From: Candidatus Moraniibacteriota bacterium
GTDB taxonomy: Bacteria; Patescibacteriota; Minisyncoccia; Moranbacterales; UBA1568
Direction of reading: 5' to 3'
Length of the DNA stretch: 46,097 bases
NCBI GenBank assembly: GCA_023261645.1
Contig: JAHFOO010000002.1
Coordinates: 63,189 to 109,285 of the forward strand
Made by a program: the position numbers and the translations under genes. Shown here piece after piece: positions 8,667 to 8,987 of this stretch (its first letter is position 1; each line of letters starts with the position of its first letter). Below the pieces are notes generated by a model that saw only the letters and a list, made by a program, of their open reading frames with translations, did not search any database and was not told where the DNA came from.

Positions 8667-8740
8667 TGGGGTGTGGCCAAGCGGTAAGGCAATAGGTTCT
8701 GGTCCTATGATCCTAGGTTCGAATCCTAGCACCCCAGCCA
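8667..8740 (+). tRNA. tRNA-Gln(CTG) with encoded CCA
   Basis: TGGGGTG/CACCCCA acceptor, anticodon loop TTCTGGT, T-arm CTAGGTTCGAATCCTAG, terminal GCCA. Confidence 0.93.
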
Positions 8741-8810
8741 ATGAAGCTAAAAGGATATTTGATTTTTCCAAGTGTCCTTTTAGTTTAGTTGTTCGGGCTA
8801 GGATTCGAAC
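8717..8810 (+). repeat. 14-bp perfect inverted repeat between the tRNA-Gln T-arm (8717-8730) and a downstream copy (8797-8810), enclosing a second stem (8747-8755/8775-8783)
   Basis: GTTCGAATCCTAGC vs GCTAGGATTCGAAC; CTAAAAGGA vs TCCTTTTAG. Confidence 0.85.
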
Positions 8811-8978
8811 GGGAGTGGGTCGGGGAACGGGAGTTACCCGTTTGGGGTGACTGAGGTCTTTCGAAGACTAGAGGGCGGCCCGTCTCGACGAGGCAAGCCG
8901 AGGTGGAAAGCCCTATAGAGCGAAGCTTTCATATGGTATGATATGAAAGTGAGCAGTGAGTGTTCCTAGCACCCCAGC
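8724..8978 (+). repeat. 15-bp direct repeat TCCTAGCACCCCAGC (8724-8738 and 8964-8978), duplication of the tRNA-Gln 3' end
   Basis: Exact match, 240 bp apart. Confidence 0.85.
8843..8978 (+). ncRNA. candidate structured RNA or decayed tRNA-associated element closed by a tRNA-Gln acceptor-like stem
   Basis: TGGGGTG 8843-8849 / CACCCCA 8970-8976; internal stems GTCTT/AAGAC, AGGGC/GCCCT, GTCTC/GAGGC, CTTTCATAT/ATATGAAAG; no ORF. Confidence 0.4.
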
Positions 8979-8987
8979 AAAAATTTT

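Follow-up and report, generated by a model that had tools for sequence, protein, structure and literature searches.

The segment directly behind the tRNA-Gln gene of the window (the whole stretch of 46,097 nucleotides that was analysed, from a Candidatus Moraniibacteriota bacterium) is likely to be a copy of a non-autonomous mobile element specific to Patescibacteria, which has a conserved folded body of about 80-130 nt, sits mostly behind tRNA genes, ends in copies of its target and would insert by the mechanism proposed below. The family is real, and it is absent both from Rfam and from the literature searched. Patescibacteria are, to our knowledge, a very large bacterial group in which few small mobile elements are known, and such an element would bring together structured RNAs, tRNA-targeted integration and palindromic in-frame repeats, topics that are usually kept separate.

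In the window, which belongs to a draft genome of 840 kb in 12 contigs (G000), the folded element spans about positions 8797-8978 (Table 1). The T-loop and T-stem of tRNA-Gln (8717-8730) recur as their exact reverse complement at 8797-8810, forming a 14-nt inverted repeat, and the 3' end of the same tRNA (8725-8738) is copied directly and exactly, again over 14 nt, at 8965-8978; this 3' arm pairs most naturally with the inverted T-arm copy. The terminator-like hairpin sits between the tRNA and the element, so that T-arm, hairpin and inverted copy make up a single long inverted repeat, and most homologues have a comparable hairpin at the same place. In the coordinates of the genome, the covariance model matches the core at G000:C1:72002-72110. 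The secondary palindromic insert at 8877-8909 is missing in most copies, and related repeats occur at unrelated sites in relatives (L040-L043).

Table 1. Features of the window copy and of the tRNA gene behind which it lies
Feature	Position	Strand	Basis
tRNA-Gln (CTG), target gene, intact	8667..8740	+	ARAGORN and Rfam tRNA, 62.1 bits
Copied target segment, T-loop to tRNA 3' end	8717..8738	+	Sequence; same arrangement in homologues
Terminator-like hairpin AGCTAAAAGGATATTTG / CAAGTGTCCTTTTAG, between tRNA-Gln and element	8741..8789	+	Sequence
5' arm GCTAGGATTCGAAC, inverted copy of tRNA-Gln T-loop/T-stem	8797..8810	+	Sequence; permutations
Conserved structured core, covariance model R1 (78 positions, 22 base pairs)	8816..8924	+	Covariance-model match, covariation
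Secondary palindromic insert CCCGTCTCGACGAGGC...GCCGAGGTGGA, in tetraloop of conserved hairpin	8877..8909	+	
Variable 3' hairpin CTTTCATAT/ATATGAAAG	8926..8949	+	Sequence; in L013, other hairpins elsewhere
3' arm CCTAGCACCCCAGC, direct copy of tRNA-Gln 3' end	8965..8978	+	Sequence; homologue comparison

A preliminary description of this segment had listed several pairings and a 10-bp direct repeat, all of which we find in the sequence at the positions it gave. The helix AGGGC/GCCCT (8872-8876/8910-8914) is conserved among homologues. The hairpin GTCTT/AAGAC exists but varies from homologue to homologue; that of CTTTCATAT/ATATGAAAG recurs in one other copy (L013), with different hairpins in the rest; and GTCTC/GAGGC (8882-8894), although present, is part of the secondary palindromic insert. 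The pairing AACGGG/CCCGTT does lie in a conserved hairpin, but in a register peculiar to the window, the consensus pairing being 8821-8828/8833-8840. Comparison with homologues leaves both the direct repeat GAACGGGAGT and the pairing TGGGGTG/CACCCCA as coincidences, and with the latter falls the proposal that a mimic of the tRNA-Gln acceptor stem closes the RNA. The match of TGGGGTG (8843-8849) to the acceptor strand is accidental because TGGGGTGAC occurs in nearly all homologues, TGGGGTG(AC) being conserved core that also stands beside tRNA-Gly, Leu and Glu, and CACCCCA merely belongs to the direct copy of the tRNA-Gln 3' end; both 14-nt copies derived from the tRNA, the inverted T-arm and the direct 3' end, had been overlooked. 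The suggestion of a structured RNA or a structure-driven mobile element was right as to structure, as homologues were found and covariation supports the core fold, and we favour its second option. The window copy indeed contains no ORF, and an Rfam search with it gave nothing beyond chance, in line with the earlier statement that it resembled no recognisable RNA family.

A nucleotide search of 57 relatives located the core in other genomes, behind the tRNA genes for Gln (TTG), Gly, Leu and Glu. The covariance model, applied to 131 genomes of the order, found 23 copies, 21 of them within the window's own family, and a pattern scan across 84,980 species returned 36 loci, for which the named records are all Patescibacteria and one is titled only 'bacterium'; carriers include Moran-, Berkel-, Colwell-, Wolfe- and Liptonbacteria and others. 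A model search in 13 of the pattern-scan genomes gave 41 matches, which brings the total to 64 copies, every genome involved being a draft or a MAG. Neither the window element nor the homologues tested reach a gathering score or a convincing E-value in Rfam, and the literature searched on small elements of Patescibacteria/CPR contained nothing relevant. A tmRNA or permuted tmRNA was rejected (12 bits against a cut-off of 47; the tmRNA of the genome lies elsewhere, at C2:630-1038, with 109 bits), and miRNA-like Rfam matches reflect nothing more than the long inverted repeat that the element forms with the tRNA.

The ends of the element are copies of its target, direct on the far side and short and inverted on the near side. 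With the AH-259 genomes excluded, 26 of 45 copies follow a tRNA gene on the same strand at a distance of at most 150 nt, for which we roughly estimate a chance expectation well under 1%; among the remaining copies, some stand behind intron-bearing tRNAs (L088, L190), a tmRNA-like 3' end (L185) or decayed tRNA-like ends. In tRNA-adjacent copies the near side is an inverted copy of the T-arm and the far side a direct copy of the tRNA 3' end, the latter found for the local tRNA in 24 of the 27 copies tested. Across these 27, each arm fits its own tRNA better than other tRNAs [5' arm against the T-arm, mean score 10.0 versus 6.1; 3' arm against the 3' end, mean score 12.9 versus 5.8], and for neither arm did any of 10,000 permutations fit as well.

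We conclude that the feature is most probably a mobile element because of an empty and filled pair of sites, repeats that run past the tRNA end, mixed tandem arrangements and the same signature at a gene that is not a tRNA. At one locus pair a copy has been gained or lost: the tRNA-Gln (TTG) gene of the window's own genome carries no copy and the orthologous site in G003 is filled, positions 300-386 of the empty site aligning before the element and 352-747 after it, with an overlap of 35 nt that represents the duplicated target. This is the only clean pair that we found. Target duplications measure about 16-72 nt, and many of the repeats are short (16-22 nt) and old; in G010, G007 and G002 they extend past the tRNA end by 14, 19 and 50 nt, and a class D element behind tRNA-Leu (GAG) of the own genome is flanked by a perfect 43-nt repeat. 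Copies of mixed classes stand in tandem, in differing order, behind tRNAs; at tRNA-Gly, G010 has class A followed by class C and G000 has class C alone, with the common terminator on the opposite side. The 3' end of rpmG bears a copy in Liptonbacteria; the direct repeat there measures 50 nt (84%), and the beginning of that repeat recurs inverted, without mismatch over 16 nt. Since rpmG is not a tRNA gene and bears the identical signature, this signature is a mark of the insertion, independent of tRNA biology. In G003 an ORF of 436 residues separates the class A element from a tRNA-Glu 3'-end copy, and in G019 two small ORFs stand in the space from tRNA-Gln to the element, so that genes can become trapped or travel along; none of these is an integrase by Pfam or by inspection.

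Some of these observations would also agree with an integron-like cassette, in which an attC-like single-stranded site is attached at the T-loop of tRNAs by a tyrosine recombinase inserting at G53/T54: the boundary lies at the T-loop and is GTT-like, folded sites stand with mixed tandem cassettes whose order changes at tRNA-Gly, and protein genes occur between tRNA and element at two loci. However, the core motifs RYYYAAC/GTTRRRY do not appear (the element has GTTC, and its arms read TTCGAAC and GTTCCTA/GTTCGAT), the repeats vary in length and extend beyond the tRNA end, and at rpmG there is no tRNA at all. Neither is there an IntI, as G000 has a single tyrosine recombinase, which is Xer-like [XerA 231 bits, over the cut-off; integron integrase 117.6 bits, cut-off 265], and in G002, which carries three copies, no tyrosine recombinase was detectable. 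We therefore regard a cassette of this kind as unlikely.

The core fold is conserved and is backed by covariation. The + strand of 8790-8985 has a folding energy of -73.7 kcal/mol (z -2.9; 2 of 200 dinucleotide shuffles as good), and the minus strand likewise folds better than its dinucleotide shuffles (z -4.3). In an alignment of 56 distinct sequences, which was fitted to the covariance model and hence is biased toward structure, 92.5% of the cells at the 22 pairs are paired, compared to 85.2% in shuffles. Both sides have changed in 12 of the 22 pairs [for columns 130/201: CG 27, UA 15, AU 8, GC 5], and the covariation score was reached by 0 of 500 shuffles, where shuffle counts are not probabilities because the sequences are related. 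The same trend is seen in an independent MAFFT alignment of 11 sequences.

Strong conservation and covariation of a fold are also what a functional ncRNA would show, such as a tRNA-binding or protein-binding regulator kept under selection and closed by a stem of the tRNA-derived arms. At paired positions outside one hairpin, G-U exceeds A-C by 20 to 7, which hints at the + strand and at this reading, though not decisively, in a count that is biased by the pattern scan used for collection. A selected regulator would sit badly with the model search, in which copies are missing from most of the order and from roughly half of family f1, with the decay of copies, and with the AH-259 copies inside unrelated genes. 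We find it improbable that such a function accounts for the element, although a role as ncRNA and mobility are compatible.

Still less probable, in our judgement, is that the copies are cargo-less remnants of ordinary tRNA-targeting integrative elements of phage or plasmid origin. Such elements, tycheposons included, usually leave duplicated tRNA 3' ends as their footprint; they likewise use tRNA 3' ends, restore the tRNA and leave a direct repeat on the far side, and the genes in between at two copies would fit as well. The present elements differ in being only 100-240 nt long and usually geneless, in having no integrase and in the additional inverted T-arm copy, which falls outside the usual footprint; moreover, what is conserved is the core and not a gene, and IMG/VR viral contigs and the phage and plasmid collections contained zero copies at the sensitivity used.

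Two genomes, AH-259-L07 and AH-259-L05, together hold 19 matches, and 13 of these copies are traversed by an open reading frame, although two of the read-through ORFs (L194 and L209) are short and possibly not genes. The same reading frame is used in 12 of the 13, encoding about 50 residues (...GSGKRSFPVGVTGANEVSDARGRKPYGE...; the predicted peptide of the AH-259-type insert is GKRSFPVGVTGANEVSDARGRKPYGE). Pfam assigns seven host proteins, namely LGT, Mur ligase, ribulose-phosphate 3-epimerase, ribonucleotide reductase, class V aminotransferase, an RmlD-like protein and a glycosyltransferase. We consider it extremely unlikely that the copies are self-splicing introns or ribozymes within tRNA and protein genes, as the pairing of the 5' arm with flanking 'exon' sequence and the presence of copies in murC, lgt and other essential genes might suggest, since an excised intron needs no open frame and the host ORFs read through, while the Rfam intron models are unmatched and the tRNAs are complete without splicing. 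In particular, the group I model is unmatched in all copies tested. The same search did find a group I intron elsewhere, at L016 1813-2026 on the minus strand (Rfam, 55.7 bits), apparently within the tRNA-Met of the G014 tRNA cluster.

The best explanation includes that in the AH-259 lineage the element spreads as an in-frame insertion, with about 50 extra residues tolerated in proteins. Copies there have a constant hairpin instead of target-specific arms, so that the fold-back step proposed below cannot be general in that lineage. Insertion in frame within protein-coding genes is also the behaviour of Rickettsia palindromic elements (RPE). Like the AH-259 copies, RPE are palindromic or folded, geneless and about 150 bp long, and they interrupt many unrelated protein genes without breaking the frame (PMC10969869). 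They belong to another phylum, whereas here insertion within ORFs in a constant frame is found only in AH-259-L05/L07, the main habitat is the 3' side of tRNAs and the arms are target-derived. We know of no RPE family with such a habitat and such arms. MITEs and REP sequences are similarly small, non-autonomous, palindromic and divided into many families; the present elements have neither terminal inverted repeats of their own nor a short target duplication of fixed length, their ends being target copies. We file the element with small palindromic mobile elements, outside the integron and intron families, and make no claim that it belongs to the RPE.

From the unusual ends, where the target is copied once directly and once inverted, a testable mechanism of insertion can be proposed, each step of which we infer from insertion products, the only stage seen. 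A staggered break of tens of bases would open the 3' end of the target gene, and the single-stranded 3' end would fold back, in many cases at the terminator hairpin. Extension of the folded-back end up to the double strand would produce an inverted arm whose end coincides exactly with the start of the direct copy, and the extended end would then be joined to the folded core. Gap filling would duplicate the 3' end of the gene, so that the tRNA would stay intact. The mobilising enzyme would act in trans. The obvious partners, a reverse transcriptase or a Y1 transposase, are present in some carriers and missing in others, each being absent from four of the five family genomes tested. More tentatively, we suggest that this could be a new kind of mobile element, whose insertion at gene 3' ends copies the target in both orientations by fold-back synthesis and rebuilds the gene entered; that synthesis might start from an intermediate, RNA or single-stranded DNA, to which the conserved fold gives its shape. 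Genome annotation would gain from its recognition because copies resemble unexplained ncRNAs or tRNA fragments.

Several further observations concern the same genomes. The window's own genome has a reverse-transcriptase-like ORF (G000:C10:45845-46492, 482 aa, PF00078, 48 bits). At least three further structured classes (B, C and D) lie behind tRNAs together with copies of tRNA 3' ends; class B (L010, L019, L037) and class C (L054 at tRNA-Gly, L047) are different structured elements in the same place, and class D (L054 at tRNA-Leu, L076 at tRNA-Ser, L102 5548-5425 on the minus strand) has a GGTC...GTGACC module in common with the class of the window. The 436-residue ORF, at L102 3997-5307 on the minus strand, has weak PsbP-like matches only, and the orthologous site of the own genome is without it. 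In L042, repeats like CCCGTCTCGACGAGGC...GCCGAGGTGGA break up the D-arm and anticodon region of a second, degenerate tRNA-Gln. The palindrome CCTGCCTGCCGGTAGGCAGG occurs at one identical position of the element in different genomes (L003 and L036, after GAACGGGAAGG / GACGAGAAAGG). Finally, at the tRNA-Val (CAC) of the own genome (L051), the 3' half of the tRNA is duplicated directly behind the gene, with no element between.
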